DNA of 64,000 nucleotides, from positions 186,001 through 250,000 of IMG/VR virus record IMGVR_UViG_3300026078_000017. One strand, given 5' to 3'. The stretch comes from a virus. Positions 43,953 to 64,000 of the stretch are shown piece by piece. The notes under the pieces are model-generated. The model made no database searches, was not told the origin of the DNA, and saw only the letters and a program-made list of their open reading frames with translations. How positions within the stretch are numbered: the first letter of the stretch is position 1; the number at the start of each line of letters is the position of its first letter. Position numbers and translations under genes: made by a program.

Positions 43953-45311
43953 TCAAAGAATCTTAGCAGCCAAGGTTGCCAACTCAGAACGTTCACCCTT
44001 TGTAAGTGTGACGTGACCTGAGATCTGTTCTTTTTTGAACTTCTCAATAGCCACCGTCAAACCGTTAGAAAGACTGTCCACGTAGGTGTTGTCGATCTGC
44101 TCAATGTCACCTGTGAGAACGATCTTGGTGTTTTCGCCAACTCTCGTAAGAATCGTCTTCAACTCATGGGCATTGAGGTTCTGAGCTTCATCGATAATCA
44201 TGAAAGCATTGGAGATACTTCTGCCACGAATGAAGGTCATTGCCTCAACTTCAATCGTACCTTCCTCGAAGTACATGTTCAAGGTCTCTTCAATGTTTCT
44301 GGATTTTTTACCAGAAGCACTCAACAAGAAACGCAAGTTGTCCTTGATAGGAGCAACCCATGGTTCCATTTTCTCTTCAATGGTACCTGGAAGGAAACCA
44401 ATGTCTTTACCCATTGGCTGAACTGGACGACAAACCACAAGACTCTTGTACTTCTTCTTTTCAAGAACAAGCTCCAAGCCTGCTGCGATTGACAACAAGG
44501 TTTTACCACAACCAGCCAAGCCTGCAAGAGTTACGAGTTTGACATCTGGGTCAAGAAGCAACTGAAGGGCGAATCTCTGTTCTTTGTTCTTTGCTTCCAA
44601 CTTACCAAGTTTCATTACATCATCTACCAAGTAGAGAGGTTCATCCTTGGAAACGAAACGTACAAGTCCAATAGACTCTTCATCAGACTCCGTGTCTTCT
44701 AAAACAAGGAACTGATTTGGAAGCAAGCCCCACTCATCTACCTTACCTGGGTGGATTTCAAGACACTTATCAGCGTAAAGTTTGTCAATGTCAAAATCTC
44801 CCTTAAGAGTCTTGACACCCGAGTACAAACTAGAAACTGATGTGGTTGCTTGAGCCTTTTTATAGTCTTCACACTCAAGACCAAGAATATCTGCCTTGAG
44901 TCTAAGGAGTGTGTCTCTTGTTACCAAAACAAGTTTTTCCTCTGTCTTAGCAGCGACGATTGTCTGACACAAGGTAAGGATGGAGTTGTCTCCAGACTGT
45001 TTGCCTGCAAGTTCGACTGGGAGAGCTTGTGGAGCTGCATTCACAATGTCATCAACAGACAAGATTCTAAGGGTGCCACCATTATTGAGAGCAATGCCGG
45101 TTTTAAGTGCCTTGTCATTTTTGGTAATATCTGCCAACTTACGAACAGTCTCACGGGCATTTCTACCAACTTCGTCTTGACGGTCCTTGTGACGATCGAG
45201 TTCCTCAATAACAATCAAAGGCAAAATGACGTAATTGTCTTCAAATGAAAAAAGTGCTTCTGGATCGGAAAGTAGAACGTTCGTGTCAATAACAAAAGTT
45301 TTCTTGGCCAT
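43953..45311 (-). CDS. phoH: PIN-PhoH protein (PhoH2 type)
   Basis: A 452-residue two-domain protein. Residues 1-150 form a PIN ribonuclease domain ('FVIDTNVLLSDPEALF' with Asp9, 'SGDNSIL' with Asp108, 'TRDTLLR' with Asp133). Residues 245-452 form the PhoH ATPase with Walker A 'LAGLAGCGKT' (261-270) and Walker B 'FMIIDEAQNL' (369-378). PhoH2 proteins are reported to unwind and cut RNA, and PhoH is common in marine and T4-like phages. All catalytic positions look intact. TATTTAA precedes the ATG by one base. Confidence 0.93.
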   Translation of the reverse strand: MAKKTFVIDTNVLLSDPEALFSFEDNYVILPLIVIEELDRHKDRQDEVGRNARETVRKLADITKNDKALKTGIALNNGGTLRILSVDDIVNAAPQALPVELAGKQSGDNSILTLCQTIVAAKTEEKLVLVTRDTLLRLKADILGLECEDYKKAQATTSVSSLYSGVKTLKGDFDIDKLYADKCLEIHPGKVDEWGLLPNQFLVLEDTESDEESIGLVRFVSKDEPLYLVDDVMKLGKLEAKNKEQRFALQLLLDPDVKLVTLAGLAGCGKTLLSIAAGLELVLEKKKYKSLVVCRPVQPMGKDIGFLPGTIEEKMEPWVAPIKDNLRFLLSASGKKSRNIEETLNMYFEEGTIEVEAMTFIRGRSISNAFMIIDEAQNLNAHELKTILTRVGENTKIVLTGDIEQIDNTYVDSLSNGLTVAIEKFKKEQISGHVTLTKGERSELATLAAKIL

Positions 45312-45629: not shown

Positions 45630-46154
45630 TCAACCTACAAAAAGATCCCACAAGAACTTACCAATTGCTGATAATAGGCCAGTTAGGACAAAACCGCCAA
45701 ACCACCAAGCACCCTTGCTAAGTTTGACTGCCTTCTGCAAATCCTTGTTGTCTTCTCCAGCAACCTTTTGGATTTGTTTAATCTTGCTGTCTGTGTCGTC
45801 AGTTCTCTTTTCAACCGAGGAAACTCTAATGTGCATCTTTTCATCAAAGTTAGAAAGGGCATCTACCTTATTGGTAAGGTTTGCAATCATTCCTTCAGAC
45901 TTGTGAAGCTTGGAGTAAATGCCATCTTCAGGGTCATAGAGACGATCAAGCTTTTCCTCAATGCGGCTGTCGTTCTGTTTGTGAGATTCAAAGTCGACGT
46001 TCAACTTGGCTTGCATACTCTTGATTTGAGACACCTCAGCCTCAAGTCTATCAAAGCCTCCGTTTAACACTTTGGCCGATCCAATCTTCTGATTGATTTG
46101 AGTTAGAAGTGCCTTGATTTGCTGGTCGTTTTCGTTGTCGTCAATTTTGGCCAT
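45630..46154 (-). CDS. Coiled-coil protein with C-terminal membrane helix
   Basis: A 174-residue protein. Residues 10-140 form an almost continuous coiled coil with heptad patterns ('LTNKVDALSNFDEKMHIRVS') and the C-terminus is a hydrophobic helix ('WWFGGFVLTGLLSAIGKFLW'). It could be a membrane-tethered rod. ATG 46154 ('MAKIDDNEND') is chosen because GGGGGA lies six bases upstream; another ATG lies at 46166. It is the first gene of the leftward region. Confidence 0.75.
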   Translation of the reverse strand: MAKIDDNENDQQIKALLTQINQKIGSAKVLNGGFDRLEAEVSQIKSMQAKLNVDFESHKQNDSRIEEKLDRLYDPEDGIYSKLHKSEGMIANLTNKVDALSNFDEKMHIRVSSVEKRTDDTDSKIKQIQKVAGEDNKDLQKAVKLSKGAWWFGGFVLTGLLSAIGKFLWDLFVG

Positions 46155-46208: not shown

Positions 46209-47612
46209 ATGACATCAACAACAACCTTCGTTGACAGAGAAGACTATCAGAAACAAATTCGCCTGTTATCTGAGGAGATTTTAACCAAATACAATGGAAT
46301 TTCTTCACTTTTAACAGAGGACTTGACCGCACTAGATTCTAATACTCTCCATCTTATTGGTAAAGTTTTACGCTCGAATTCACCTCTGGGGGTGAGTTTT
46401 TGTAAGCTCCTTGGTAACTCTTTGTTACAGGCTGAGTCACTAGCTGGCAACTCTGCCAACATTGGACTCATCTATTGCCTGAGCCTCCTTAAGAACGTTT
46501 TGGCATCAGATACCCTAAAAGGCATGTCAGATGTTGCACTTCTGTCTCAATATGAGACAATTCTCCTCAAGCTAAAAGAAGCCATCGAAAACAGCTATCA
46601 AGTTCCTAACTTGGAAGACCTGGAGCAGATTATCGAAAAGGTGTGTGAGGATCGTCTGTTGGCACAGGTTGTCGTTGGAGCAATGAAGGTTGCCGGACTT
46701 CAAGGAAAGATCTACTTTGAAAACGGCAGACAGCACAACTTTGTCGTAGAACGTAGAACTGGGTACAACTTCAAAACAAAACCCTACAAGTTCTTCTTGG
46801 ACTCAAGTGGAGTCTGGGAAAGACAGAATGTAAGGGTTCTGTTGATTGATGGTGTTCTTGAGCAGGTATCTGAGATTGATCAGATTTTGAATGCCGCTCT
46901 TACAAACAAACAGTCAGGTATGATTGTGTGCAGAGGTTTCTCTGAAGAAGTTATTGCCACTCTCAAGGCCAACTTTGACAGAGGACTAATCGACGTCATG
47001 CCCGTCAGAATCAACTCTGACCTGGAGTCCATTAATATTCTCAATGACATGGCAAGTGTGTGCGGCTGTGATATTGTTTCTTCCCTTAAGGGCGATTTGA
47101 TTTCTTGTGTAAAGTGGGATAGTCTTCCTGTTATCAACAAGGTTAGATGTCTTCTTGACAAGACAACCATTGAGGAAGAGAAAACCAGAAATAGTGTCAA
47201 TGCCCAAATCAAACACTTGTTGGCTAAAAGATTTGACAACCAAAACTTGGAAGACGTTGTGAACCTGATTGACGAGAGAATCAAGGCTCTAACCTCTGAG
47301 TCTGTTATTGTTAGACTTCCAGTTATGACCCATCTTCAAAACCAAACAGCAAAAGGGAAGTTCGATACTTCCCTTCGTACAGTCAAGGCAGTTTTGAATA
47401 ATGGCCTAATGACCTTTGGTGACCTGAGAAACAATTTTAAACCAAATAATACTCCACTCGACAGAGCAGTACTTCAAAGCCTAGAAGAAACCCTAAAACA
47501 TTTTGAGAATGTCAAGGTTTCTTCCTTGTCAGCTTACTTGGCCTTCAATGTTTGTGGTAAACAAACGTTGATGATTGCCTCAACTAACGGTGCTATTGTT
47601 GAGGAGGACTGA
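46209..47612 (+). CDS. GroEL-like chaperonin, diverged ATP site
   Basis: A 467-residue protein with recognisable GroEL order. The intermediate/apical part reads 'VVVGAMKVAGLQGKIYFENG', and then 'IVCRGFSEEVIATLKANF', 'GLIDVMPVRINSDLES', 'NILNDMASVCGCDIVSS' line up with the GroEL apical domain. The C-terminal 'FDTSLRTVKAVLNNGLMTFG' corresponds to the GroEL stretch holding Asp398. The ATP motif AGDGTTT is 'AGNSANI' here (residues 79-85), and the Asp398 position is a threonine, so ATPase activity may be lost. It is about 80 residues shorter than GroEL. Start ATG 46209 is preferred because upstream codons overlap the divergent gene. Confidence 0.8.
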   Translation: MTSTTTFVDREDYQKQIRLLSEEILTKYNGISSLLTEDLTALDSNTLHLIGKVLRSNSPLGVSFCKLLGNSLLQAESLAGNSANIGLIYCLSLLKNVLASDTLKGMSDVALLSQYETILLKLKEAIENSYQVPNLEDLEQIIEKVCEDRLLAQVVVGAMKVAGLQGKIYFENGRQHNFVVERRTGYNFKTKPYKFFLDSSGVWERQNVRVLLIDGVLEQVSEIDQILNAALTNKQSGMIVCRGFSEEVIATLKANFDRGLIDVMPVRINSDLESINILNDMASVCGCDIVSSLKGDLISCVKWDSLPVINKVRCLLDKTTIEEEKTRNSVNAQIKHLLAKRFDNQNLEDVVNLIDERIKALTSESVIVRLPVMTHLQNQTAKGKFDTSLRTVKAVLNNGLMTFGDLRNNFKPNNTPLDRAVLQSLEETLKHFENVKVSSLSAYLAFNVCGKQTLMIASTNGAIVEED

Positions 47613-49272
47613 TCTTCCAACCAGCCTTTAGAAGTGCACTGAGAACTTGCTTGTTGTTTTGGATTGGACCACCAGCAATCTGTGTAACCTTCGCAGCCAT
47701 GTCATCGACGTTTGGAGCGTTTGGCTGACCTGGAGGAGTTTGTTGCTGTCCTGCTTGTGGAGTAGGACTTGCTGTGTTTTGTTGATTTGTCTGTTGAACT
47801 TGGGATGCTCCATTTGGCGGTGGAGGTGCCGCACCCGCTGTTCTCTGAGCCTGATTAGAAGGCTGAGAGCTTTGGGTTGGAGCTGCCTGTCCCGCTGGAG
47901 TTGTACCAGAAGCCTGTTGGGTTCCTTGGGATGCGTTTTGACCTGGGGTGATCGGGTGACCTCCCTTGTCCATGCCTGGAGGAAGTTTTAGACCATTGAG
48001 CCTGGTGAAGAAGTTCTCAAGGTGTTGAACTGTTGCCTGGTCATTTGCAGCAGTTCCTTGTTTCAAGACATTTATCAAGTCTGTCGTGATGGCTTCTGGA
48101 CGAAGAGCAGGATCAGTTGTGCCGGACTTAAAGAAGTTAGAAATTCTCTTGAATAGATTTTGACCAACACCCTTGTTGATGAGAGCTTCCAGTTGTTGAA
48201 GTTCTTGATCATTTAGTGGTCTGTTATCAGGCAGCAACTGATTGATTTTTGGCCAAAGTTCAGCAAGCTTCTCGAAGTAGTTGTAGACGATGTTTGCAGT
48301 TGCAGCCACACCCTTGATAGATGGATCAAGGAAGTTCTTTTTGCCTGAGGCAGCAGCCAAGGCTTGACCACGAAGCTTTTCGAGAGCAGCACCAGTTGCC
48401 TGGAGTTCTGGAAATTGCTTGATGATGGTAGAAATCTTCTGGAGTCCCTGATTGACTCTTTGAAGCTGCATAGCAGGATCTTCGCCTGCTTCCTTGAGGA
48501 AGGCTTCTTCCTCTTCTGTCAGAACATCGCCTCCCTCAGGTGCTTTTGGGTTTGTGCCTGTCGCTGCCTCCATCGCAGGAGCTGCCATTGGAGCTGCTTC
48601 TGCCTTTTCTGGAGTAGCTACAAGCGGAACCTTGTCAACAGACATAAGTTGCTTGAAGTCTCCGGCACTCAGGTTCAAAAGTTCATCTGCGATTTTCTCA
48701 TAGTCCAAGGTTGGAAGTTCCATGGACTTGTACATCCTCTTGAGGATTTCTTGGACTTCATGACCTGGAACCAAGGCATGAAGAATCGCCTTCTTCATTC
48801 TTTCAGCCTCTGCAAGATCCTTGAGAGGTGTGGTTGGGTTCTCGATAGCCTTTCTGAAAATAGGGAACTCCAACATGGACTTCATGTCTCTGTTGAAGAA
48901 CCTCGAAAGGTTGTTGTAAAGCAAGGACATGTACTTTACCATGTAGGTTGCTGGTTCCTTGATTGACTCTTTTTCCTCATCTGTCAAACGAAGACGACCA
49001 TCCGCACGGGTGATCTTCTCGCCCATGGTAATACGGTTCATGAGTTCAACAGCATCGTCAAGGCTTTTCTTGACTTCTGGAACTCTTGCTGCAAACGGAG
49101 CAAATACTGAGTCAAACTTCGAAATTGAACTCTGGAGTCTCTGGAGCGCCTCACGATTAAAAGTCTCGTTGAGCAACAAAACGTTTTCCATTACCCAAGA
49201 AACAGCGGCTTCGTTTATCGCTTTATTCTTTTGGACTTTAAACTTGCCATACTCTTCTCTAAGTGTTACCAT
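47593..49272 (-). CDS. Large hypothetical protein with Q/P-rich tail
   Basis: A 559-residue protein. Residues 1-420 are mainly helical and acidic ('MVTLREEYGKFKVQKNKAIN', 'AERMKKAILHALVPGHEVQE'); residues 425-520 are low-complexity Q/P/A/T-rich ('PTQSSQPSNQAQRTAGAAPP'); a short globular end follows ('VTQIAGGPIQNNKQVLSALL'). It converges with the GroEL-like gene, the 3' ends overlapping by 20 bases. A possible scaffold-like or virion protein. AAGAGG precedes ATG 49272. Confidence 0.68.
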   Translation of the reverse strand: MVTLREEYGKFKVQKNKAINEAAVSWVMENVLLLNETFNREALQRLQSSISKFDSVFAPFAARVPEVKKSLDDAVELMNRITMGEKITRADGRLRLTDEEKESIKEPATYMVKYMSLLYNNLSRFFNRDMKSMLEFPIFRKAIENPTTPLKDLAEAERMKKAILHALVPGHEVQEILKRMYKSMELPTLDYEKIADELLNLSAGDFKQLMSVDKVPLVATPEKAEAAPMAAPAMEAATGTNPKAPEGGDVLTEEEEAFLKEAGEDPAMQLQRVNQGLQKISTIIKQFPELQATGAALEKLRGQALAAASGKKNFLDPSIKGVAATANIVYNYFEKLAELWPKINQLLPDNRPLNDQELQQLEALINKGVGQNLFKRISNFFKSGTTDPALRPEAITTDLINVLKQGTAANDQATVQHLENFFTRLNGLKLPPGMDKGGHPITPGQNASQGTQQASGTTPAGQAAPTQSSQPSNQAQRTAGAAPPPPNGASQVQQTNQQNTASPTPQAGQQQTPPGQPNAPNVDDMAAKVTQIAGGPIQNNKQVLSALLKAGWKISPPQQ

Positions 49273-49329: not shown

Positions 49330-50010
49330 ATGCCCATCGATATAAAACCAACCGGAAAAACAATTTCCCTAGAAGAGCTTCTTCGAAAGGAAAATGCTGT
49401 TTATTTGCCCAAGCCTATGATTTCCCGACCAAATTCCCCAAGTGTGGAAAATGAGGAAGACAAGGTTCCAAGCAAGTTTTACTTGCCAGTCCTGAGGATT
49501 AATGACCCAACACAGTGGGAATCGAAACCCCTGAGCGAACGAGTACACTTCACAGATGAGGTGGCAAAGAAGACCTGTCTAGGAAACTGTTGTGGTGTCA
49601 AGGACTTGCGTGCCGGGTGTTGTCAGCTCGACGTGGACGAGGGAGACATGGAGCACGTTCTAGGTCCGGTGGATGAGGACTGGATCAAGAAAACAATCCA
49701 CTGGATGAAAAAGAAGGGATTGAACGTGACAAGACACGATCTTGTGATAGACTACGATGAAGGTAAACTAATCGGGCAACAGTTCTTTCACGATCACGAG
49801 GTCTTCAAACAGAAGGACACCTATCCAATCTTACGCATCCAGGCCAACGGAAAACGCTTTGCCTGCAAATTCCTAAATGTTCATAATGGTATGTGTACCA
49901 TTTACGAACAAAGACCGAACATGTGTAGAGACTATTTATGTGAGTATGTGAAGTCGAACTTCCTTGCAAGGACCAAGGAACACCCGAATACGTATAAAAA
50001 GCTAAGGTAG
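49330..50010 (+). CDS. YkgJ-like cysteine-cluster protein
   Basis: A 226-residue protein of the YkgJ/CxxxCxxCC metal-binding type. Cysteines occur in 'CLGNCC', 'AGCC', 'FACKFLNVHNGMCTIYEQRP' and 'NMCRDYLCEY', the spacing expected for binding iron-sulphur or zinc. The N-terminal 70 residues are variable. It lies four bases before the YkuK-like gene, and the order looks like a rightward operon 49330-51724. The biochemical role of the family is poorly known. Confidence 0.78.
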   Translation: MPIDIKPTGKTISLEELLRKENAVYLPKPMISRPNSPSVENEEDKVPSKFYLPVLRINDPTQWESKPLSERVHFTDEVAKKTCLGNCCGVKDLRAGCCQLDVDEGDMEHVLGPVDEDWIKKTIHWMKKKGLNVTRHDLVIDYDEGKLIGQQFFHDHEVFKQKDTYPILRIQANGKRFACKFLNVHNGMCTIYEQRPNMCRDYLCEYVKSNFLARTKEHPNTYKKLR

Positions 50011-50863: not shown

Positions 50864-50949
50864 GTACCAAGCTTAGGATCGCTCTTTTTGTACTTGGTGG
50901 TATAGGCTTGGTCGGTATAGGTTTTCTTTCCGCCTTGTTATTGCTATGA
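50860..50949 (+). CDS. 29-residue membrane peptide with CTG start
   Basis: A 29-codon frame, CTG 50860 to TGA 50949, encoding '(M)STKLRIALFVLGGIGLVG' then 'IGFLSALLLL'. It is a single hydrophobic segment preceded by two positive charges. The start CTGA overlaps the upstream stop exactly as ATGA would, and its own stop overlaps the next ATG (ATGA), so both ends fit the operon's coupling pattern. An unusual CTG start and very short length keep confidence modest. Confidence 0.42.
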   Translation: MSTKLRIALFVLGGIGLVGIGFLSALLLL

Positions 50950-51419
50950 GAGACTACGTAAAGCACCTTATTCAATGCAAGTGCATTCTGATGCAGTTTC
51001 GTCAGATGCCAGATCCTCCTTTTCACAAGTTCATTGTGTTCTCGGAAATCGAACCCCCGGGCATTATAGTAAAATCTATTGTCCAGTGCCCGAACTGTGG
51101 TGCGGTTCACCGAGTAAAAGAAGTCGGAGTCAGTGAAGTCCTTCGTAAGGAAGATGCCCCAAGCATTCTGACAATCGAGGAAATCAAATCCTCCCTGCCA
51201 GAGAAACTGGTTGCAGGATTTTCAGGGTATGACCTTGAACTCCACCAGTGGATGGAAATCAAGTGGATCCTAGACAATGAACAGTGGGGCAGAAACGTCA
51301 TTCTCACAAAAGACTCTGCCGATGGTCTTGTCACAGGAAAGTATGTCCAAATCATATCCAAGGACATTTGGCGATTTAACAACTTCTCCCGTGAGGAGAT
51401 GATTGCAGAGAAGACATGA
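50946..51419 (+). CDS. Hypothetical protein with CxxC zinc motif
   Basis: A 157-residue protein. 'SIVQCPNCGAVHRVKEVG' gives a CxxC knuckle around residue 48, and a beta-rich C-terminus ends 'VQIISKDIWRFNNFSREEMI'. It could bind zinc and nucleic acid or protein. The start overlaps the upstream stop and the stop overlaps the next start (ATGA on both sides). Family not recognised. Confidence 0.65.
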   Translation: MRDYVKHLIQCKCILMQFRQMPDPPFHKFIVFSEIEPPGIIVKSIVQCPNCGAVHRVKEVGVSEVLRKEDAPSILTIEEIKSSLPEKLVAGFSGYDLELHQWMEIKWILDNEQWGRNVILTKDSADGLVTGKYVQIISKDIWRFNNFSREEMIAEKT

Positions 51420-51724
51420 CAGACACCAAAGAACAAACCCCAGCAGAGTTTTGGGAAGAAGAACAACCAGATCAGGTTTACATCAAACCACGTCTAGAGA
51501 TGAATCTTTCCCCAAAGCAGAAACAAGACTGTAGAGACATTGCCCTGGAGATTCGTAAGTTCGGAATCAACTACAGACAGAGATTGTTTCTGTTGGAACT
51601 CCTTGCCCTTGAGTGCGAAGATAATAACCTCATCCGAGATATCAAGGCTGCCATTGAGAAGTCCAGGGAGACTTTCGGCAAGCAACAGGAATCCGGGTTG
51701 ATTATTCCTGGGTCAAACGACTGA
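51416..51724 (+). CDS. Hypothetical acidic helical protein
   Basis: A 102-residue protein ('MTDTKEQTPAEFWEEEQPDQ' start), acidic at the N-terminus and helical in the middle ('QKQDCRDIALEIRKFGIN'). ATGA overlap with the 50946 gene. Its 3' end converges with the leftward 51702 gene and overlaps it by 23 bases. Function unknown. Confidence 0.62.
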   Translation: MTDTKEQTPAEFWEEEQPDQVYIKPRLEMNLSPKQKQDCRDIALEIRKFGINYRQRLFLLELLALECEDNNLIRDIKAAIEKSRETFGKQQESGLIIPGSND

Positions 51725-55995: not shown

Positions 55996-56071
55996 ACAGG
56001 GAAATTCCCCAGGAAATTTTTTCCAAAATTGAAATTGGAATTTGAAAATTGACTTGCGCCAAAAAGTACAG

Positions 56072-56227
56072 GGGTCAAGCCTATTAACACAATAGGAACC
56101 CCCGGTCATTATGGACGTGGGGGGGTGGGGTCAATTTGATACCCCTGGTAGGGGTGGGGGTCAATACCCCCAATTGACGGGTATCAAGTTCGATACAGTG
56201 TCAAGTGTAGGTATCAAACGAGATACC
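56072..56227. repeat. Cluster of GGTATC/GATACC dyads (operator or iteron array)
   Basis: Within 156 bases there are four dyads with centres 25-30 bases apart: GGGGTCAATTTGATACCCC (56127-56145), GGGGGT-CAAT-ACCCCC (56156-56171), GTATC-N6-GATAC (56181-56196) and GGTATC-N6-GATACC (56210-56227). The word GGnTCAA or GGTATCAA also appears near 56072 and 56198, and a six-base dyad CCTATT-AACAC-AATAGG sits at 56080-56096. TTGACA abuts the last dyad. The array precedes the tandem gene set, so operators for an early promoter are a fair guess; replication iterons are an alternative. Confidence 0.6.
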
Positions 56228-56261
56228 TTGACAAGGCATGTGATGTATGCTAGGGTGTATC

Positions 56262-56471
56262 ATGTCTGAGTGGCATCACAACTGGCAGCCTGGGTATCTA
56301 TATAGGTGCATACATCATCATGGCACATGGATTGCACCTGGCGACTTAGTTTTGTTATTGAATGAAGGTGGTGATGGTCGGTATGAGGTGTATCACTTCC
56401 GTCTTGGACAGAAGGCATTGGTATTGCATCATGATGCGGTGTGGCATTTTAAGTTAGAAGCCAAGCTTTGA
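56262..56471 (+). CDS. Tandem GD-barrel family member 1
   Basis: A 69-residue protein, first of the array. 'PGYLYRCIHHHGTWI' is followed by the family core 'APGDLVLLLNE' and 'RYEVYHFRLGQK'. Start ATG 56262 ('MSEWHHNW') was chosen over one 15 bases upstream because it begins the conserved layout. It begins 35 bases after the dyad cluster. Histidine-rich, with no catalytic motif. Confidence 0.6.
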   Translation: MSEWHHNWQPGYLYRCIHHHGTWIAPGDLVLLLNEGGDGRYEVYHFRLGQKALVLHHDAVWHFKLEAKL

Positions 56472-56479
56472 GGGTCAAC

Positions 56480-56752
56480 ATGGAAAATTGTTCTACTGAG
56501 GAGAAGGAGCATTTGTCTTTAACCAACATGCCTAGGGTTGGCGACTTGGTTTGGTTACCGAATTACTACACTCCGCACTTATATCTTGTGATACAAAATC
56601 CGGTAGTATCATGGTTGAACTCTACTGATGGATATTTGGTGGAGTTTTTGTGTGTTGACATGGTGACGCAGAGAAAAGGACTTCAGTGTTTCGAGCAGTA
56701 TCCCGATATTTGTATCGATAGCGATTATCGGATCATGTCGAGGTTTTGTTGA
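56480..56752 (+). CDS. Tandem GD-barrel family member 2
   Basis: A 90-residue protein with the core 'MPRVGDLVWLPNYYTPHLYL' and 'YLVEFLCVDMVTQ'. ATG 56480 is preceded by GAGGGTC, a good Shine-Dalgarno element; a TTG start at 56468 would overlap the preceding gene. A cysteine-bearing C-terminus ('FEQYPDICIDSDYRIMSRFC') differs from its neighbours. Confidence 0.65.
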   Translation: MENCSTEEKEHLSLTNMPRVGDLVWLPNYYTPHLYLVIQNPVVSWLNSTDGYLVEFLCVDMVTQRKGLQCFEQYPDICIDSDYRIMSRFC

Positions 56753-56783
56753 CATGTTGTCATGGGTCTGCTAGTGTGAGAGG

Positions 56784-57017
56784 GTGGAAGAGAACGTTGG
56801 AAAGTTATTGAGGGCGAAGGGATCCTGTCGAGCCTGGGCTTTGGTCTCAGTTGGGGAAGTGATTTGTCTTATCCATCCTTCGGATATCATTTTGGTCTTG
56901 AGGTGGCATAACTCACATTTTATTGTGTGGGACTTGACACAGCAATGCATGTACGAGGTTTTCTTTCTAGATTTTGCGCGTATGGACTGGGAAGAGGTAA
57001 CGAGTGAAGGATTCTGA
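56784..57017 (+). CDS. Tandem GD-barrel family member 3
   Basis: A 77-residue protein, GTG start at 56784, 31 bases after the previous stop. 'WALVSVGEVICLI', 'DIILVLRWHNSHFIVWDLTQ' match the family strands G-[DE]-[IV], L-V-L and W-D-L. The divergence from its neighbours is high. Confidence 0.58.
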   Translation: MEENVGKLLRAKGSCRAWALVSVGEVICLIHPSDIILVLRWHNSHFIVWDLTQQCMYEVFFLDFARMDWEEVTSEGF

Positions 57018-57312
57018 CTTTGGTGGGCTTTATAAGCCTTTGAGACGTGTTCCTAGGGCTGGGGATATTCTCTTGCAGGATTTTCCTCGGTGGGCTAGTG
57101 GCGAGCTTGGAATCTACATGGTAACCTCAGAGCCTGCATATCACACCACCAAGAGTCCATATTTGCCGCCAGGGACTTTAATTTGGCACATTGACTTGTG
57201 GAACTTGGTTGACTATGGATTTACGTGGTGGGAGCCGCAGGGTTTGGAAGATGGTAAGTTGACTTCTGAGAGTGTGCAAGGGTGGTATTTGGCGACTTAT
57301 GACAAAGTCTAG
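57004..57312 (+). CDS. Tandem GD-barrel family member 4
   Basis: A 102-residue protein with a GTG start overlapping the previous gene by 14 bases. Core 'VPRAGDILLQDFPRWASGEL', 'IYMVTSEPAYHTT' and 'LIWHIDLWNLVDYGFTWW', one of the most tryptophan-rich members. The longer loop between strands accounts for its length. Confidence 0.62.
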   Translation: MKDSDFGGLYKPLRRVPRAGDILLQDFPRWASGELGIYMVTSEPAYHTTKSPYLPPGTLIWHIDLWNLVDYGFTWWEPQGLEDGKLTSESVQGWYLATYDKV

Positions 57313-57616
57313 CAAAAATCTTGTGCCGGCAACCTTTGTGCCAGAGGTTGGGGAGATTTATAGGATTAAGGGAAATTATGGCCGTGGCAATAGCAGCGTG
57401 CCATTTTACACAATCAATGACCGTTTGTCAGGGGATTTTAGTTTCTTGCACACGGGTGATCTTGTTCTTTTTCTTTGTGAGGAGGAGAATTCTCACTGGA
57501 AAGGCACGCCTTATGCTTGTAAGTGGTGGAAGGTCTTTGACTTGAAGAATCTTTTGGTTGGACATATCATGGATGACACCAGGACGATTGAGAGCTTGTC
57601 TAAGGACTTGGCATGA
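57299..57616 (+). CDS. Tandem GD-barrel family member 5
   Basis: A 105-residue protein. ATG 57299 ('MTKSSKNLVP') overlaps the previous gene. It contains both sub-type cores: 'VPEVGEIYRIKGNYG' and 'LHTGDLVLFLCEEENS', then 'WWKVFDLKNLLVGHIMDD'. This helps to align the two sub-types of the array. Confidence 0.63.
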   Translation: MTKSSKNLVPATFVPEVGEIYRIKGNYGRGNSSVPFYTINDRLSGDFSFLHTGDLVLFLCEEENSHWKGTPYACKWWKVFDLKNLLVGHIMDDTRTIESLSKDLA

Positions 57617-57879
57617 AAATTGACTTACAGGTTGGCGACGTGTTTCAGACCAAAGCCACAAGTCACGCGTGGATTGGGCCAAAGTATTTGTTACTTGACA
57701 AATGTCCGATTGAACCAAAATACGGCAATTTTGAGTCGGCGTTTGCACTTGACCTTGACAAGTGTGAATGTTTCAGGTTTGCTATTGCGAGCGACAGCAC
57801 ACAGTTGACCATGGGTTATGAGTTAACGGTTTGGTCTATGTCAGGCAAGATGAAAATCTATACCAGTGAAATGTTATGA
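57613..57879 (+). CDS. Tandem GD-barrel family member 6
   Basis: An 88-residue protein with an ATGA overlap. 'DLQVGDVFQTKATSHAWIGP', 'KYLLLDKCPIEPKYGNFE' and 'ALDLDKCECFRF' follow the family order. The C-terminus 'MGYELTVWSMSGKMKIYT' adds two more strands. Confidence 0.62.
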   Translation: MKIDLQVGDVFQTKATSHAWIGPKYLLLDKCPIEPKYGNFESAFALDLDKCECFRFAIASDSTQLTMGYELTVWSMSGKMKIYTSEML

Positions 57880-58169
57880 CGTGTGAGTGCAAAAACTGTT
57901 GTTTCGTCCGCAAGCAAGAATTGCCTATGTGGACCTTTGGTGAACGTCCACCGAGGGTTGGTGACCATATCTTTCTTGACACGCCATCCAACATTTTCAG
58001 ACGACACAAGGCATCACACTTGATACTTTCGATTGACGAGCATGAAGATGAGTGGAAAATGTTCAAGTATTTTACACAGACGATTCAATACATGGACGGC
58101 AAGGATTCTAGGTCGCCATTGAATCTCAAAGTCACAGACAGTTATTGGTTGCTTGGAAGTGTGGATTGA
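57876..58169 (+). CDS. Tandem GD-barrel family member 7
   Basis: A 97-residue protein. The N-terminus has four cysteines ('MTCECKNCCFVRKQE') before the core 'PPRVGDHIFLDTPSN' and 'SHLILSIDEHEDEWKMFKYF'. The cysteine set may bind metal and is unique among the copies. ATGA overlap with the previous gene. Confidence 0.6.
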   Translation: MTCECKNCCFVRKQELPMWTFGERPPRVGDHIFLDTPSNIFRRHKASHLILSIDEHEDEWKMFKYFTQTIQYMDGKDSRSPLNLKVTDSYWLLGSVD

Positions 58170-58188
58170 GGTATACTAGGTAATTGCG

Positions 58189-58461
58189 ATGTTTGAGAGA
58201 CCTTTATTTCCTCCTGTGTGTGAGTCTGGCATGTTATATGTGGTAACACACGCCATGCCATTTTACAAAAATTGTTTTGTAAATGTTCCACCTGACCTAT
58301 TGCCAACGATGTTGACTGGTCACAAGGTTTTGCCTCTTGGACCGATTCATGCACTTGAGTACAACTTCCAGCAAATATGGAATTTGACGTCAGGACATAT
58401 TGGGTTTGTGTTTGGTCCAACCACTTATCACTTTAGGAAGCTTGAGGAAGATGGCTTATAA
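58189..58461 (+). CDS. Tandem GD-barrel family member 8 (diverged)
   Basis: A 90-residue protein. 'FPPVCESGMLYVVTHAMPFY' and 'EYNFQQIWNLTSGHIGFVFG' align with the family strands, but the G-D pair at the first core is 'SGMLYVV', so this copy is more distant. Starts 19 bases after the previous stop. Confidence 0.5.
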   Translation: MFERPLFPPVCESGMLYVVTHAMPFYKNCFVNVPPDLLPTMLTGHKVLPLGPIHALEYNFQQIWNLTSGHIGFVFGPTTYHFRKLEEDGL

Positions 58462-58711
58462 CGAGCAAAAGCCTGAGGCTGGTGATGTGTGGATTGTCAC
58501 AAAGACAAGTGGCACTTATGTAAGTGTACCTGCCAGCATTTTCGGTTCCAACGAACATCGTGTAGCAAAACATATACCATATGGCACGTATGTTTTGTTT
58601 CTTGAGAATGCACAATTTAAGAATGCAAATGGCACTGCCATTATGGTAAATGGAGAAAAATGTTGGGTATCTCCGTATTATCTTCACGGAATAAGCCCGA
58701 TTCGAGGATGA
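58451..58711 (+). CDS. Tandem GD-barrel family member 9
   Basis: An 86-residue protein. ATG 58451 ('MAYNEQKPEAGDVWIV') has GAGGAAG upstream and overlaps the previous gene by 11 bases. The core 'EAGDVWIVTKT', 'IPYGTYVLFLENAQ' and 'EKCWVSPYYLHG' define the PYG-x-Y-x-LFLE sub-type shared with the next gene, which looks like a recent duplicate. Confidence 0.66.
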   Translation: MAYNEQKPEAGDVWIVTKTSGTYVSVPASIFGSNEHRVAKHIPYGTYVLFLENAQFKNANGTAIMVNGEKCWVSPYYLHGISPIRG

Positions 58712-58714
58712 CTT

Positions 58715-58978
58715 ATGAGAGGCGCAAAGTTACCAAAAAAGGGTGACATCTGGATTGTCAAGTCACATTCGGTTTATGTGAGGGTTCCAGGCGCGTCACC
58801 TTATGCGGATATCACTACTCGATACGCAATTCCTGTGCCATACGGGTCATACCTCTTATTTCTTGAAGATATGCGGGATTTTCCAGAGCAGGTTGAAGTT
58901 TTGTGGAAAAATCAAAAGTGTTGGATAACATTTAGTTATGTGACTCAACACATGCAAGACATGGAGAGATTGAAGTGA
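58715..58978 (+). CDS. Tandem GD-barrel family member 10
   Basis: An 87-residue protein. 'KLPKKGDIWIVKSHSVYVRV', 'VPYGSYLLFLEDMRDF' and 'NQKCWITFSYVTQ' are near-parallel to the preceding gene, so the pair is the clearest duplication of the array. Starts three bases after the previous stop. Confidence 0.66.
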   Translation: MRGAKLPKKGDIWIVKSHSVYVRVPGASPYADITTRYAIPVPYGSYLLFLEDMRDFPEQVEVLWKNQKCWITFSYVTQHMQDMERLK

Positions 58979-58980
58979 CG

Positions 58981-59289
58981 ATGACACCAGAAGAAAAAGA
59001 CAACTTGACAAGCGTTTTCTACCTGCTCATGCGGGATTATGTTCCAACTGGCACAATTGCAAAGCTCGTGCAGGACTTGGAGAAACATCCAGGTCCGCAC
59101 GAGTTTACGAGCAAGTATCTTGCGGCTTACGCTGGCGAGCTTGTAGAACGCATCGCTAAGGTGCCGCAAAGCCCTTCTTCCAATAAACCTTCGCCTTCCT
59201 TGGAAAGTCTACGGAAGGAGATTGAGGTTTTGCGGCAGAAGATTGCCGAGATGGGTCCGATTCGGAATGACGGTTTCCAGGACCCGTAA
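58981..59289 (+). CDS. Helical hypothetical protein in the array
   Basis: A 102-residue protein that does not share the barrel motifs. It has helices ('MTPEEKDNLTSVFYLLMRDY', 'AKLVQDLEKHPGPHEFTSKY') and a C-terminal coiled coil ('SLRKEIEVLRQKIAEMG'). GTG 58975, giving a GTGA overlap, is an alternative start. It ends four bases before the stop of a leftward gene. Confidence 0.6.
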   Translation: MTPEEKDNLTSVFYLLMRDYVPTGTIAKLVQDLEKHPGPHEFTSKYLAAYAGELVERIAKVPQSPSSNKPSPSLESLRKEIEVLRQKIAEMGPIRNDGFQDP

Positions 59290-59293
59290 ACAC

Positions 59294-59518
59294 TCAGATC
59301 TTATCATGTTGCCAATATTTGGCAATGAGAGAAATAATTTCTTCTTTCTCAACCTGCCCTGTCTTGAGGTTGAGTTTAGTTAGTGTGTAATAATTCCGGC
59401 CATCGGGCTTTTCCACACGTAACACTAAGTGAATGGATTTGGTCTCAAGGTGGGTGATTAGGTCGCCTGGGGACAGGTCAGTGACCAGAATCTCTTTGTA
59501 GTGGGAAAGCCTAGTCAC
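59294..59518 (-). CDS. GD-barrel family member on the opposite strand
   Basis: A 74-residue protein with the core 'DLSPGDLITHLETKSIHLVL' and 'YTLTKLNLKTGQVEKEE'. GTG 59518 overlaps the stop of the 57-residue gene by three bases. It shows that the array is not confined to one strand. Function unknown. Confidence 0.6.
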   Translation of the reverse strand: MTRLSHYKEILVTDLSPGDLITHLETKSIHLVLRVEKPDGRNYYTLTKLNLKTGQVEKEEIISLIAKYWQHDKI

Positions 59519-59688
59519 GTTGCCGATTCTGCCAGAAGAGCGTGAGCCCTTGCCTGAGAGTCTTCCTGGTACTGACGCTCACGTGAGGAGCTGAACCAGG
59601 TGAGGGATTTCAATCGACTCTGAATCAGGTCATCCTGAGACTTTTCGACGTTGGACTTCTTGCGCTTGGGGTTCTTGTTGGTCGGCAT
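59515..59688 (-). CDS. 57-residue basic hypothetical protein
   Basis: A short gene, ATG 59688 to TGA 59515, encoding a lysine-rich start ('MPTNKNPKRKKSNVEKSQDD') and a helical end ('YQEDSQARAHALLAESAT'). It is coupled by GTGA to the leftward family gene. There is no Shine-Dalgarno element close to the ATG, which lowers the confidence. Confidence 0.5.
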   Translation of the reverse strand: MPTNKNPKRKKSNVEKSQDDLIQSRLKSLTWFSSSRERQYQEDSQARAHALLAESAT

Positions 59689-59712
59689 AAGGAGATATTA
59701 GCAGAAACGACA

Positions 59713-59745
59713 AAGGGAGCAACCTATTTTTGTAGGTGCTCCCTT
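59713..59745. terminator. Strong hairpin, probable terminator
   Basis: AAGGGAGCA(A)CCTA, a short T-rich loop, then TAGGTGCTCCCTT: a 13-bp stem with one bulged A. It lies just downstream of the stop of the leftward 196-residue gene, before the 57-residue gene. T-rich text follows in both directions, so it can stop transcription of either strand. Confidence 0.65.
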
Positions 59746-59750
59746 CTTAT

Positions 59751-60341
59751 TCAGCGTCGGCAAATCGTTGGTTGTTTCACACGAACCCAATCCTCGTGAG
59801 GATCCAAGGCAAGCAAGGTATCTAGATTCTTGGAACAAACGAACATGGACACCGGCCCAGCCCCTTCACTTTCGCTCAGAAAGTCGTTGTACTCACTTGC
59901 AACCATCCGAGTCCATACGAAACATGCCGGACTATCGAACATGCGTGAAGGCTTGGGCAAGTGATTGAAATTTCGTCCGTTACTGAACGATTGAGTGTGA
60001 GAGAAAAGGGCATTTGCCAGATTCTCCATTTTCCAATCGTCGAACAAATTTGAGAAAAGACGAAAGCCATCCAAAGCATATCGTGATTTCTTGGCGTTTT
60101 CGCTTTTGCCAGTCCAGTAGATTCGATTGACTAGAACCTTACAGATCCGCGTCTGATGAGGCTTAGTGTGAGCTTCTCGAATCAACGATTCGGCTTCTTT
60201 GGCAGAATGGGCAGTAGTATAGTGCTCGTAAATGATCGCATCACGGTGGTTCGTGAAAGACTTCTCGCCACGATGCGAGCCCATGAGATCTTTGCGGGTA
60301 TCATTGCCACGGGCCAAAACCAAAACCTGATAGTCAGCCAT
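59751..60341 (-). CDS. Hypothetical protein, mixed alpha/beta
   Basis: A 196-residue protein ('MADYQVLVLARGNDTRKDLM' start), with 'SAKEAESLIREAHTKPHQTR' and 'ALDPHEDWVRVKQPTICRR' at the end. No recognised motif. GAGGATATAAA precedes the ATG. It is part of a leftward block (60752-59294) interrupting the rightward array, followed by a strong hairpin. Confidence 0.62.
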   Translation of the reverse strand: MADYQVLVLARGNDTRKDLMGSHRGEKSFTNHRDAIIYEHYTTAHSAKEAESLIREAHTKPHQTRICKVLVNRIYWTGKSENAKKSRYALDGFRLFSNLFDDWKMENLANALFSHTQSFSNGRNFNHLPKPSRMFDSPACFVWTRMVASEYNDFLSESEGAGPVSMFVCSKNLDTLLALDPHEDWVRVKQPTICRR

Positions 60342-60425
60342 TTTATATCCTCGGTGTTTGTCAGTCGCCCTGTGCTGTTGACAAAGAACGTTTTACCAGA
60401 ATCTCAGAGACGTGCAAGGATTATT

Positions 60426-60752
60426 TTAGCGTCCAACCACTGACACAGGACAACCATGCGTCAAAAGAAAATCTTGACGACGAAGTGGAGAAGTGTGCCA
60501 AAATTCTGTTCGCAATCGAACGATGCAGGAAATCCGGGAAATTGGTTCACGTGAACATAACATTGGCACAACAATTGGCAGACATTGATCAAGCATACGA
60601 TAGCCGTGTGACTGCACGCGGTCTTCACCAGCACCATAAATAGGACCTGACGCAAAAGATCCACGATCAAGTCGAGTCACGTAAACACGCGGTCCACAAC
60701 CGCTTCCAAGACTGCTGAATAGAACCAACAGAACTAACAGAAAACTTTTCAT
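60426..60752 (-). CDS. Putative lipoprotein
   Basis: A 108-residue protein. 'MKSFLLVLLVLFSSLGSGCG' looks like a lipoprotein signal peptide with cysteine at position 19, though the residues before the cysteine (LGSG) are not a perfect lipobox. The rest has no known fold. An outer-surface lipoprotein could act in superinfection exclusion; this is an inference. Another frame of the same DNA is also open (60461-60670), which lowers confidence. Confidence 0.45.
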   Translation of the reverse strand: MKSFLLVLLVLFSSLGSGCGPRVYVTRLDRGSFASGPIYGAGEDRVQSHGYRMLDQCLPIVVPMLCSREPISRISCIVRLRTEFWHTSPLRRQDFLLTHGCPVSVVGR

Positions 60753-60825
60753 CCTACACTTTATCACACCTTCCCAATGAGTCAAGGATTGACATTGGCT
60801 TTCTTTCTGCTACTCTTCCCAGGTC

Positions 60826-61137
60826 ATGCCTCAGATTTGTGATTTCTCTAGAGAACGTCTTCTGCGTCCACCTCCAATTGGCGCACTTATTGCGTGCGAA
60901 AGAGGTACGAATGCAAATGTAAACCGACCGAGAAAACTCGGTGGACCACACGAGGAATTCTTTTTGGTCCTCAGTGTCAAGATGGACACATACAGCAATA
61001 CCTCGGAGATAGTCAAGAAGTGGTTGATTGACGTCTTGGACTTACAAACCCTAACAACCACATGGATTTGGCCGCGTGAGGACGAGGAAGGAAATCTCAA
61101 GTTCATGAATGCTGATTGGTGGTTGCTGCATGAGTGA
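60826..61137 (+). CDS. Tandem GD-barrel family member 11
   Basis: A 103-residue protein resuming the rightward array. 'LRPPPIGALIACERG', 'HEEFFLVLSVKMDTYSNTSE' and 'WLIDVLDLQTLTTTWIW' keep the spacing of the family, with the G-D pair changed to G-A. A TTGACA lies at 60792-60797 in the 73-base divergent gap before it, but no good -10 element is visible. Confidence 0.6.
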   Translation: MPQICDFSRERLLRPPPIGALIACERGTNANVNRPRKLGGPHEEFFLVLSVKMDTYSNTSEIVKKWLIDVLDLQTLTTTWIWPREDEEGNLKFMNADWWLLHE

Positions 61138-61399
61138 AAAATTCCTTGATTGGGTTGACCTTGACTACACCGACATAACATATCCGCCAAAGGTCGGAGA
61201 CTTCATTTCTCCTAATGAATTTGGGCGTGATGACATTTATATGGTCATCAGAACCGAAAGAATTGACCCTGACTGTTTGCTTGTTGTTTTGTGGGACCTG
61301 AGAAAAAATTGCAAGGCTTTCAATGTTTGGCACTTAATGCCGGACACCAAGAAAGTGCGTTGGCCTTATTCTAGATGGGCGGTTGTTACGCTTCCATGA
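61130..61399 (+). CDS. Tandem GD-barrel family member 12
   Basis: An 89-residue protein starting 'MSEKFLDWVDLDYTDITYPP', followed by 'KVGDFISPNEFGRDDIYMVI' and 'CLLVVLWDLRKNCKAFNV'. ATG 61130 overlaps the previous stop. It shares an MSEK beginning with the next gene. Confidence 0.64.
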   Translation: MSEKFLDWVDLDYTDITYPPKVGDFISPNEFGRDDIYMVIRTERIDPDCLLVVLWDLRKNCKAFNVWHLMPDTKKVRWPYSRWAVVTLP

Positions 61400-61626
61400 G
61401 TGAAAAACATTACGACTTTGTTGGAAAATCATATTTGATACCCTTTGGTGTGTCAGTGTTCGGATTTGGCGTTACGAATCCTGGACACAATGAGTGGTTA
61501 AAGCCTGGCACAACATTTCTGGTGCTGAGTGACAGCCAAACAACAGGGGAATATTTTACTGTCTTGCATCTTGGTCTCAGGTATGACATAAGCTATAGTC
61601 GCCTTATGGACTGTCGTGAACTATGA
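61396..61626 (+). CDS. Tandem GD-barrel family member 13 (diverged)
   Basis: A 76-residue protein ('MSEKHYDFVGKSYLIPFGVS'), with 'KPGTTFLVLSDSQTT' and 'YFTVLHLGLRYDISYSRL'. It lacks the first G-D pair but keeps the later strands. ATGA overlaps join it to the genes on both sides. Confidence 0.55.
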   Translation: MSEKHYDFVGKSYLIPFGVSVFGFGVTNPGHNEWLKPGTTFLVLSDSQTTGEYFTVLHLGLRYDISYSRLMDCREL

Positions 61627-61952
61627 CTTTCATCAACCTGAAAAATCTTGTGGATGTTCAGCCTGGAACGTTGCTGAAAGCTCGGGGGTGTGAGGGAAGC
61701 TTTGCCTTGGTTCTTGAGCCACCCACACTAAACACAACACAAACAAACAGTGATACTTCTTTTCACCTAAATTGTAACTGTTGGCATATTTCTGAGAAGA
61801 GTCTTTACGGTACGAAAAGACAACCAACCGATTTACCAAAGCCAGATTTTCTCACCATAAAAATGCACTTCTTTCCACATCAGGGATTAAGTCTGGCGAC
61901 ATGTGTCGGATGGGAAATATACGACGGTGAGGACATAAATCATGGAACTTGA
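61623..61952 (+). CDS. Tandem GD-barrel family member 14
   Basis: A 109-residue protein. 'VDVQPGTLLKARGCEGSFAL' and 'VLEPPTLNTTQTNS' carry the family core; an insertion rich in T, N and H separates it from 'SLATCVGWEIYDGEDIN'. ATGA overlap with the previous gene; overlaps the next gene by 11 bases. Confidence 0.57.
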   Translation: MTFINLKNLVDVQPGTLLKARGCEGSFALVLEPPTLNTTQTNSDTSFHLNCNCWHISEKSLYGTKRQPTDLPKPDFLTIKMHFFPHQGLSLATCVGWEIYDGEDINHGT

Positions 61953-62175
61953 TCGACTACCACAAATCGGCGAGACATGGACGGTCAAGGAAGATCACCA
62001 AGCTTTCGCCATTGACCAAAACTACAAGCCGTGGCGATTTGTACCAGGTATGTATATTCTCTTCCTTGATACAGTCAGGTCACTAGACATAACAGATGAA
62101 TCAACACCCATTCTGTGTCAAGGTGTACGTTATCACATCATGCGACTCTATATCAGGGCCTTAGTACCTCTGTGA
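61942..62175 (+). CDS. Tandem GD-barrel family member 15
   Basis: A 77-residue protein. 'MELDRLPQIGETWTVKEDHQ', 'VPGMYILFLDTVRSLD' and 'QGVRYHIMRLYIRAL' make it a shorter member of the PG-x-Y-x-LFL sub-type, akin to members 9 and 10 and to the leftward 51702 gene. Confidence 0.63.
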   Translation: MELDRLPQIGETWTVKEDHQAFAIDQNYKPWRFVPGMYILFLDTVRSLDITDESTPILCQGVRYHIMRLYIRALVPL

Positions 62176-62182
62176 GACACAA

Positions 62183-62512
62183 ATGGAATTTCATAAATCA
62201 AAAATGATAGAAGTCAAAGTTGGTCAGGTGTATCAAATTCGAGAAGAGACAGATCCGGATCTGTGGTGTCACCTAATGATTTTTCAAGACGAAAGAGATA
62301 GTCAAGGCAACTATCCCCACAAGCACTTGGAATACCCTTCTAAGGTCGTAATAACCCGTGAGAAGCATATTTCAAACGGACGTTGGGTGATTGAGGTTCA
62401 GGTGGCAAATGTCATCTCACCGCTTCTGAGTGACCTGGAAAAACGTTGGATTTGTCGAGAAGGAGATCTCAGAGAAGATACAATTCAACTGGTAGATCAT
62501 GGAACCCCATAA
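62183..62512 (+). CDS. Tandem GD-barrel family member 16
   Basis: A 109-residue protein. 'MIEVKVGQVYQIREETDPDL', 'CHLMIFQDERDSQGN' and 'WVIEVQVANVISPLL' follow the family order, with a longer acidic loop. Seven bases separate it from the previous gene, and it overlaps the next by 14. Confidence 0.58.
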   Translation: MEFHKSKMIEVKVGQVYQIREETDPDLWCHLMIFQDERDSQGNYPHKHLEYPSKVVITREKHISNGRWVIEVQVANVISPLLSDLEKRWICREGDLREDTIQLVDHGTP

Positions 62513-62789
62513 AAATCATAGACACTATGTGTCAAGGAAAAATCTCCCTAGTGTTGGTGACATAATCCAGTGGGGCGAATGTAAGCCCGGTGAGCATTAT
62601 TTGCTGGTTTTGGAAGAGCCAAAGTTGATACAAGAAGCCAAAGATTTTTCCAGTCCCCTATTAAATGCCATAATAGACACACATTGGCAACTTTTGTGTC
62701 TCGACATTGATTCTGGAACCCTGGCACACAATTGGTTTTGGGATGATGTTATCAGCGACTATGTGTTCATTAGTCGACTTGACCCATGA
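62499..62789 (+). CDS. Tandem GD-barrel family member 17
   Basis: A 96-residue protein. 'LPSVGDIIQWGECKPGEHYL', 'LVLEEPKLIQEAKD' and 'WQLLCLDIDSGTLAHNWFWD' are close to the consensus, making it one of the clearest copies. Confidence 0.65.
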   Translation: MEPHKNHRHYVSRKNLPSVGDIIQWGECKPGEHYLLVLEEPKLIQEAKDFSSPLLNAIIDTHWQLLCLDIDSGTLAHNWFWDDVISDYVFISRLDP

Positions 62790-62817
62790 CCAAAGCCATG
62801 CTAGACTATTTGGTTCT

Positions 62818-63111
62818 ATGTTTCACAAAGGTACAGTAAAAAAACTGAAACTGCTTAAAGAAGTTCCCAAGAATGGCACGCTTCTTGTTCAGCAGCACAA
62901 CAATGGCAATAATGTGTCGCTTGATTTTTCTCTCTATCTGGTCTTGGATTCTGAGTATATCGCGACTCGACGTGACTGGCGCTTAAATCTATGGTGTATC
63001 ACAGCAGGATATAACACAAGGTGGAATCCTCCGGGCTTTCCAAATGGAAAGCTAAATCTTGACTGGACAACAGGACCCGTTAAGTGGTATGTGTTTAGTG
63101 AGCCCGAATGA
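62818..63111 (+). CDS. Tandem GD-barrel family member 18
   Basis: A 97-residue protein from ATG 62818 ('MFHKGTVKKLKLLKEVPKNG'). 'TLLVQQHNNGNNVSLDFSLY' and 'LVLDSEYIATRRDWRLNLWC' fit the family. The start is uncertain: no good Shine-Dalgarno element is seen, and the frame is open for 37 codons upstream, inside the previous gene. Confidence 0.55.
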   Translation: MFHKGTVKKLKLLKEVPKNGTLLVQQHNNGNNVSLDFSLYLVLDSEYIATRRDWRLNLWCITAGYNTRWNPPGFPNGKLNLDWTTGPVKWYVFSEPE

Positions 63112-63413
63112 CACGTCAGAAGAAAGTCAAGCATTTACCTGGCAAGATTCTTGAAATGCGTGCCAATGGATGTGTGATGTATTTTTTCTCAGATGAAGAC
63201 AATAATACTTCCAACCTCAAACACCTTCACAAGGGAAATCTCTTTATGATACTTGACACGGTCAAGTCAGAGGATGTTCCAGGCGAAGCCTGGCAAAAAA
63301 GCAACCCTCAAGAAAAGTGGTGTCGAGTTTGGCACTTCAAGTCTAATCTGATTGGATACATTGCCCTAGAGGACATAATCGTCTTCACAGAAGAAACTCG
63401 GTGGTTGACATGA
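63108..63413 (+). CDS. Tandem GD-barrel family member 19
   Basis: A 101-residue protein with an ATGA overlap. 'HLPGKILEMRANGCVMYFFS', 'LHKGNLFMILDTVKSED' and 'WCRVWHFKSNLIGYIALEDI' resemble member 5, including the second core with an asparagine in place of aspartate. Confidence 0.6.
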   Translation: MTRQKKVKHLPGKILEMRANGCVMYFFSDEDNNTSNLKHLHKGNLFMILDTVKSEDVPGEAWQKSNPQEKWCRVWHFKSNLIGYIALEDIIVFTEETRWLT

Positions 63414-63622
63414 GCACTATTCTGCGAACAGGAGACATTATCCGTTATCGGCCAGCAGCCCTTGGTACAGTATCCTTGGTTTTGACAGAACCAATTTTGG
63501 TAAACAGTCGTTGTTGGCGTGTTAAAACGTGGGACCTAACCCGAAATGAACTGTCGGGTGCAGTCTTTTACACAATCAAGAACAATGCCGATCCCAACTG
63601 GGAAGTTATTTACCACATATGA
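63410..63622 (+). CDS. Tandem GD-barrel family member 20
   Basis: A 70-residue protein. 'ILRTGDIIRYRPAALGTVSL', 'VLTEPILVNSRCWRVKTWDL' and the ending 'DPNWEVIYHI' are near-identical in layout to member 21. ATG 63410 makes an ATGA overlap; GTG 63401 is an alternative. One of the shortest copies, nearly pure core domain. Confidence 0.66.
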   Translation: MSTILRTGDIIRYRPAALGTVSLVLTEPILVNSRCWRVKTWDLTRNELSGAVFYTIKNNADPNWEVIYHI

Positions 63623-63978: not shown

Positions 63979-64000
63979 GGGCGTTGCGAATCTCTTCCAC

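Follow-up and report, generated by a model that had tools for sequence, protein, structure and literature searches.

A GroEL paralogue without the ATPase residues and with a conserved, altered apical groove in uncultured large phages

Introduction

Amongst chaperonin pseudoenzymes, the best described in the literature searched are the vertebrate BBS proteins: BBS12, BBS10 and MKKS are chaperonin paralogues in which the ATP-hydrolysis motifs have been lost or altered, and which occur beside a canonical chaperonin (PMC2846930). A chaperonin apical domain is also found outside of the folding cage, as the Fab1_TCP domain of the PIKFYVE kinase (PMC2846930), and functional divergence has been described for the chlamydial GroEL2 and GroEL3 proteins (PMC1892554). 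With regard to phages, chaperonins of the type found in Pseudomonas phages EL and OBP are ATP-dependent and ring-forming (PMC5934643). A literature search, in which most subscription papers and preprints were beyond reach, returned no paper on a phage family of the kind described here.

The locus in question lies in a 64,000 nt stretch (hereafter the window) of a 320,479-base virus record, and encodes a 467 aa GroEL paralogue (46209..47612, + strand; ATG at 46209, stop ending at 47612), putatively ATPase-dead on the basis of homology, predicted fold and codon selection. Like the canonical phage GroELs and the EL and OBP chaperonins, it is GroEL-like and encoded by a large phage; unlike them, it has neither an ATP site nor the segment at 420–495, and it is a second gene in a genome that also carries a GroEL of the intact type. 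Chlamydial GroEL2 and GroEL3 (NCBIfam NF038369 and NF038370) are likewise divergent paralogues beside a canonical GroEL, but the window protein scores only 42.8 bits against the chlamydial GroEL3 model, for which the cut-off is 600. The BBS proteins belong to the eukaryotic group II (CCT) chaperonins and keep the ATP-binding Gly-Pro (PMC2846930), which the alignment shows to be lost in the phage family, whilst Fab1_TCP is an isolated domain within a kinase, as opposed to a protein that retains the intermediate and a reduced equatorial domain. The paralogue represents a separate, more reduced phage family, akin in kind to the BBS proteins and to chlamydial GroEL2 and GroEL3.

Homology and predicted fold

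The GroEL likeness that an earlier sequence-only reading of this DNA proposed for the frame is upheld by several searches. GroEL from the PDB matches the 467 aa protein with E = 1.4e-11 (phmmer), the PHROG 5725 (phage GroEL) profile aligns to its residues 114–400 (E = 3.9e-19) and recognizes 50/59 members of the paralogue family, and a profile built from that family reaches PDB GroEL at E = 3e-28. AlphaFold2, run on single chains, predicts a three-domain chaperonin fold with a reduced equatorial domain (pLDDT 86.3, pTM 0.73), for which Foldseek returns GroEL (E = 1.9e-25) and, with the best TMq of 0.79, the ATP-bound mtHsp60 8g7l; the alternative that the protein has no chaperonin fold was thus tried and failed. 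The model of a relative, L113, is predicted with a pLDDT of 92.7, and its matches are again GroEL and Hsp60. Identity of the window protein to GroEL is approximately 14 % in structure alignments. Pfam PF00118 does not match it, and its score against TIGR02348 (54.7 bits) lies below a cut-off of 582 that even the intact GroEL of the same phage narrowly misses (569 bits). Homology of the window protein to GroEL is nonetheless far beyond chance.

Loss of the ATP site

Positions are numbered as in E. coli GroEL (ORF numbering being that of the literature), family counts were made with corrected start codons for the kin, and R452 was left out of these counts because its occupancy differed between two samplings of adjacent positions. 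In the window protein, AGNSANI (residues 79–85; 46443..46463, + strand) replaces the GroEL phosphate loop AGDGTTT, with D87 changed to Asn, and T387 occupies the position of D398 (D386 and T387; 47364..47369, + strand). Alignment bears out both of these substitutions, which the sequence-only reading had called, along with its view that the ATPase residues are gone. That view understated the loss, as it missed the absence of D52 and of the GGG at 414–416, as well as the deletion of a segment at approximately 420–495 that holds the C-terminal nucleotide site and inter-ring contacts. Its companion claim, that known phage chaperonins keep these residues, holds for those aligned (EL and OBP not amongst them), with D398 present in 14/14, the GDGTT loop in all and D52 in 9/9.

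These changes extend to the whole family. D52, D87 and D398 are each present in 0/59 members, residues 479–481 are deleted in 59/59, and D495 is retained by none, being deleted in 57 and replaced by Glu in two. A catalytic Asp elsewhere was sought without success, although the earlier reading had overlooked D386, which sits at GroEL position 397, one residue before D398, and is invariant. This is unlikely to be the catalytic residue displaced, since the helix is free of gaps and the Asp is invariant in the family; for the same reasons an alignment slip hiding D398 is rejected.

In GroEL, D87 lies at the gamma-phosphate of ATP, whilst D52 and D398 bracket the attacking water (PMC3326522, PMC10723157). 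Activity falls to 3 % with the D398A change alone (PMC3326522) and to none with D87K (PMC10723157). With all three residues lost, no ATP hydrolysis is predicted; the alignment thus supports a paralogue that no longer hydrolyses ATP and that has probably lost ATP binding too. So far as they can be assessed from the residues present, the defining functional features of GroEL are missing, and the paralogue would not be counted amongst the working chaperonins. Other residues have become fixed in the family, namely E82, G225, E228, D397 and R401 (E. coli numbering), of which E82 and R401 flank the dead ATP site, whilst E232, T261, N265, R268, D291, G306 and R368 are invariant and the same as in E. 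coli GroEL. One idea is that E82, R368, D397 and R401 might form a salt-bridge latch at the position formerly taken by ATP.

Apical domain

Conservation within the family is highest in the apical domain (approximately residues 184–365; 46758..47303, + strand), which aligns to E. coli GroEL 191–376. Mean column entropy is 1.96 bits here and 1.19 bits within helix I, compared with 2.70 and 2.80 bits for the two equatorial halves; constraint has shifted to the apical domain. Within it, alignment locates the groove between helices H and I at residues 222–258 (46872..46982, + strand), where the surface is altered. Substrate and GroES contacts of GroEL include F204, L234, L237, L259, V263 and V264 (PMC7289027). 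L234 has become His, Asn or Asp in 59/59 members and V263 has become Lys or Arg in 49/59, such that, together with F204, these contacts are polar or charged in the majority of members, or in every one; in addition, E252 is replaced by Arg in 53/59. Hydrophobic residues at 237, 259 and 264 are partly retained, with L237 kept in 51/59, and N265 (59/59), R268 (59/59) and E232 are invariant. The groove has therefore diverged from that of GroEL and is conserved in this new state, and its residues read as those of a specific rather than a generic surface.

Distribution and selection

Kin phages were reached by way of an alignment of the baseplate wedge protein (window 15422–17263), and homologues in five kin records served to build a family alignment that led to 64 viral loci. 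In total, the family comprises 59 distinct homologues at 65 loci, including the window protein, all of them in uncultured-virus contigs of large phages. Most are 370–470 aa in length, and the closest relative, L102, is 63–64 % identical to the window protein. Single-sequence scans of the viral contigs returned no match with either the window protein or an intact GroEL as query. Amongst 50,697 GenBank phage records, queries with three members retrieved, if anything, only canonical GroELs and a single weak hit attributable to chance (E = 0.5), and one pattern scan of the GTDB species genomes detected no family member. In a maximum-likelihood tree of the region at approximately 137–410, the family falls on one side of a branch with SH-aLRT support of 99, whilst the intact GroELs that these phages also carry form a separate group (SH-aLRT 97). 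The family may have arisen by duplication within the lineage, but some branches are long and leave its deep placement unsure.

The Nei–Gojobori (NG86) dN/dS between the window gene and that of L102 is 0.11, at a saturated dS of 2.6, and it is 0.09–0.18 in six other, less diverged pairs. As reading frames are intact in all 59 sequences, a pseudogene, frameshift or assembly artefact is ruled out by the frames and dN/dS together. The gene is under purifying selection and is not decaying.

Intact GroEL and GroES in the same phages

Outside the window, and missed by the sequence-only reading, the same record also encodes a canonical GroEL of 580 aa (L001:1405-3147; matching G000:133998-135632), in which AGDGTTT and DALNAT are intact, and, approximately 8 kb from it, an 89 aa GroES (L181:1486-1755, minus strand; G000:143360-143599). 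The intact GroEL carries a lysine-run insert (KKKKKMDIGGNN...) near residues 500–530, in the C-terminal equatorial part. Besides this genome, an intact GroEL is present in 6/7 family-carrying kin records with a length of 204 kb or more, meaning that the family almost always occurs beside one in records of sufficient length to show it. None of the shorter kin fragments has one, as is expected from the spacing of the two genes, which is no less than 60 kb in records that show both; the distance between paralogue and intact GroEL ranges from 60 to 190 kb, and they do not share an operon. With regard to more distant kin, Flavobacterium phage immuto has an intact GroEL and no paralogue, whilst the searches run found neither type in LR756508 or Microcystis phage Mel-JY01.

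Gene neighbourhood

Immediately upstream of the paralogue in the window is a gene for a coiled-coil protein (45630..46154, − strand), for which a C-terminal membrane helix is predicted from sequence only. This neighbour adjoins the paralogue in 51/65 loci, being divergent in the window, whereas most kin have it directly upstream in the same orientation. On the other side, an ORF for a 559 aa protein (47593..49272, − strand) is convergent and overlaps the last 20 bases of the paralogue. By position and N-terminal sequence only, its product resembles the LKEKYE proteins (approximately 350 aa), which are convergent in 27 loci. Further downstream are a Cys-rich (CxC...CxxC) protein (50946..51419, + strand) and a small protein (51416..51724, + strand), conserved in 63/65 and 62/65 loci, respectively. 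A helicase is found near the paralogue in 54/65 loci and a ClpP-like protease in 52/65; in most kin (e.g. L163 and L160), the protease clusters with an XPD/DinG-like helicase downstream of the paralogue. ClpP of the window phage is far from the paralogue (G000:55335-55841), which weakens the ClpP or operon link as proof of function. The gene cluster is accordingly only suggestive, as the coiled-coil gene of the window phage is divergent and its ClpP lies far away. A PIN-PhoH protein (window 43953–45311) is near the paralogue in 32/65 loci, and the product of window 49330–50010 has a weak, sub-cutoff match to PF03692, a CxxCxxCC metal-binding family.

Possible function

The explanation that we favour, with confidence a little short of even, is that of a chaperonin pseudoenzyme whose apical H/I groove serves as an ATP-independent module for one specific partner, whilst the intact GroEL and GroES carry out folding. 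Its support consists of the homology, the predicted fold, the loss of the ATP site, purifying selection, the altered and conserved groove, and co-occurrence with intact GroEL. A single lineage of large phages would have fixed a GroEL paralogue that has given up ATP hydrolysis, and probably ATP binding as well. Its three-domain scaffold, and chiefly the helix H/I groove, would then bind a single partner as an assembly adaptor or scaffold, with general folding left to the separately encoded GroEL and GroES. We infer that partner binding occurs through the groove, that the protein works nucleotide-free, and that it may take part in protein quality control or in assembly of the particle. Set against this, the retention of L237 and N265 in the groove implies that a GroES-like loop may still bind, whilst a plain monomeric adaptor is at odds with the stem loop and terminal strands, features of intra-ring contact that most members (52/59) keep.

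These same ring features bear on a second possibility, the main rival, which is unlikely but to be taken seriously, that the paralogue is an inactive subunit within rings of the phage's own (or the host's) GroEL, where it may tune the ATPase, the binding of the co-chaperonin or the choice of client, or cap one ring. The stem loop (36–50) is occupied in 52/59 members and forms a hairpin in the L113 model, where the N- and C-terminal strands are also present, and the inter-ring contacts E434, E461 and V464 have been deleted from all 59 members, which is what a ring unable to stack would show (K105 and A109 are deleted in 38/59 and 41/59, respectively). The presence of intact GroEL in the same genomes is likewise in its favour. 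However, the stem-loop segment of the window protein (residues 36–45) is modelled with low confidence (pLDDT <50), some members have no stem loop, its contact residues are not strictly conserved across the family, and the wide separation of the two genes means that they do not form one operon. The sequence-only reading had named host GroEL as the protein that such a subunit modifies; if there is a partner of this kind, it is more probably the GroEL that the phage itself encodes, since the phage carries both GroEL and GroES and nearly all large kin have GroEL. A combined arrangement, in which intact GroEL and a nucleotide-free paralogue form a two-part system, the latter in its own single ring or in that of GroEL, and the re-evolved apical groove specifies a phage assembly protein, is rather unlikely also.

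The same reading had suggested a non-hydrolysing holdase, and whilst the loss of the ATPase stands, this role is weakened, and it is now improbable that the protein acts as a passive, ATP-free holdase for unfolded phage proteins. Isolated GroEL apical domains can serve as minichaperones, and the hydrophobic residues partly kept at 237, 259 and 264 are consistent with such activity. Nevertheless, the replacement of groove hydrophobics disfavours a generic holdase, given that the contacts F204, L234 and V263 (PMC7289027) are mostly polar or charged family-wide, and a generic binder has no need of polar groove residues conserved in 59/59 members.

A structural or assembly component unrelated to folding, be it in the virion, membrane-linked or a scaffold, is also quite improbable. 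The coiled-coil neighbour with its C-terminal hydrophobic helix and the linked ClpP-like protease point in this direction, but neighbourhood is weak evidence, and in the window phage the former is encoded on the opposite strand and the latter elsewhere. Marginally less credible still is a decoy or modulator of phage or host GroES, which would bind the mobile loop via what remains of the H/I groove. The phage does encode a GroES, and L237 (51/59) and N265 (59/59) are two of three listed GroES contacts (PMC7289027); the third, L234, is lost throughout, and PF00166 (GroES/Cpn10) finds no match in the kin records, even where an intact GroEL is present. Finally, a decaying, functionless duplicate, as might be read from the low identity to GroEL and the deletions, is refuted for the family at sequence level by a dN/dS of approximately 0.1, 59 intact frames and invariant new residues, and has next to no chance of being correct.

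Returning to the partner-specific pseudoenzyme, we infer that the chaperonin shape has been redeployed for another use in dozens of uncultured large phages. With at least 59 phage sequences in which the ATP site is erased and the apical domain constrained, the family allows one to ask what an ATP-free chaperonin does. It also calls for caution, as profile-based 'chaperonin groEL' labels can be given to proteins for which GroEL-like folding of clients is unlikely.

Other features of the window

ARAGORN detected no tRNA genes in the window, and the region from approximately 56000 to 64000 contains short ORFs only. Downstream of the baseplate genes, window 21235–25855 holds a run of glycosyltransferase genes together with one for a nucleotide-sugar epimerase (PHROG 2170 and 540).
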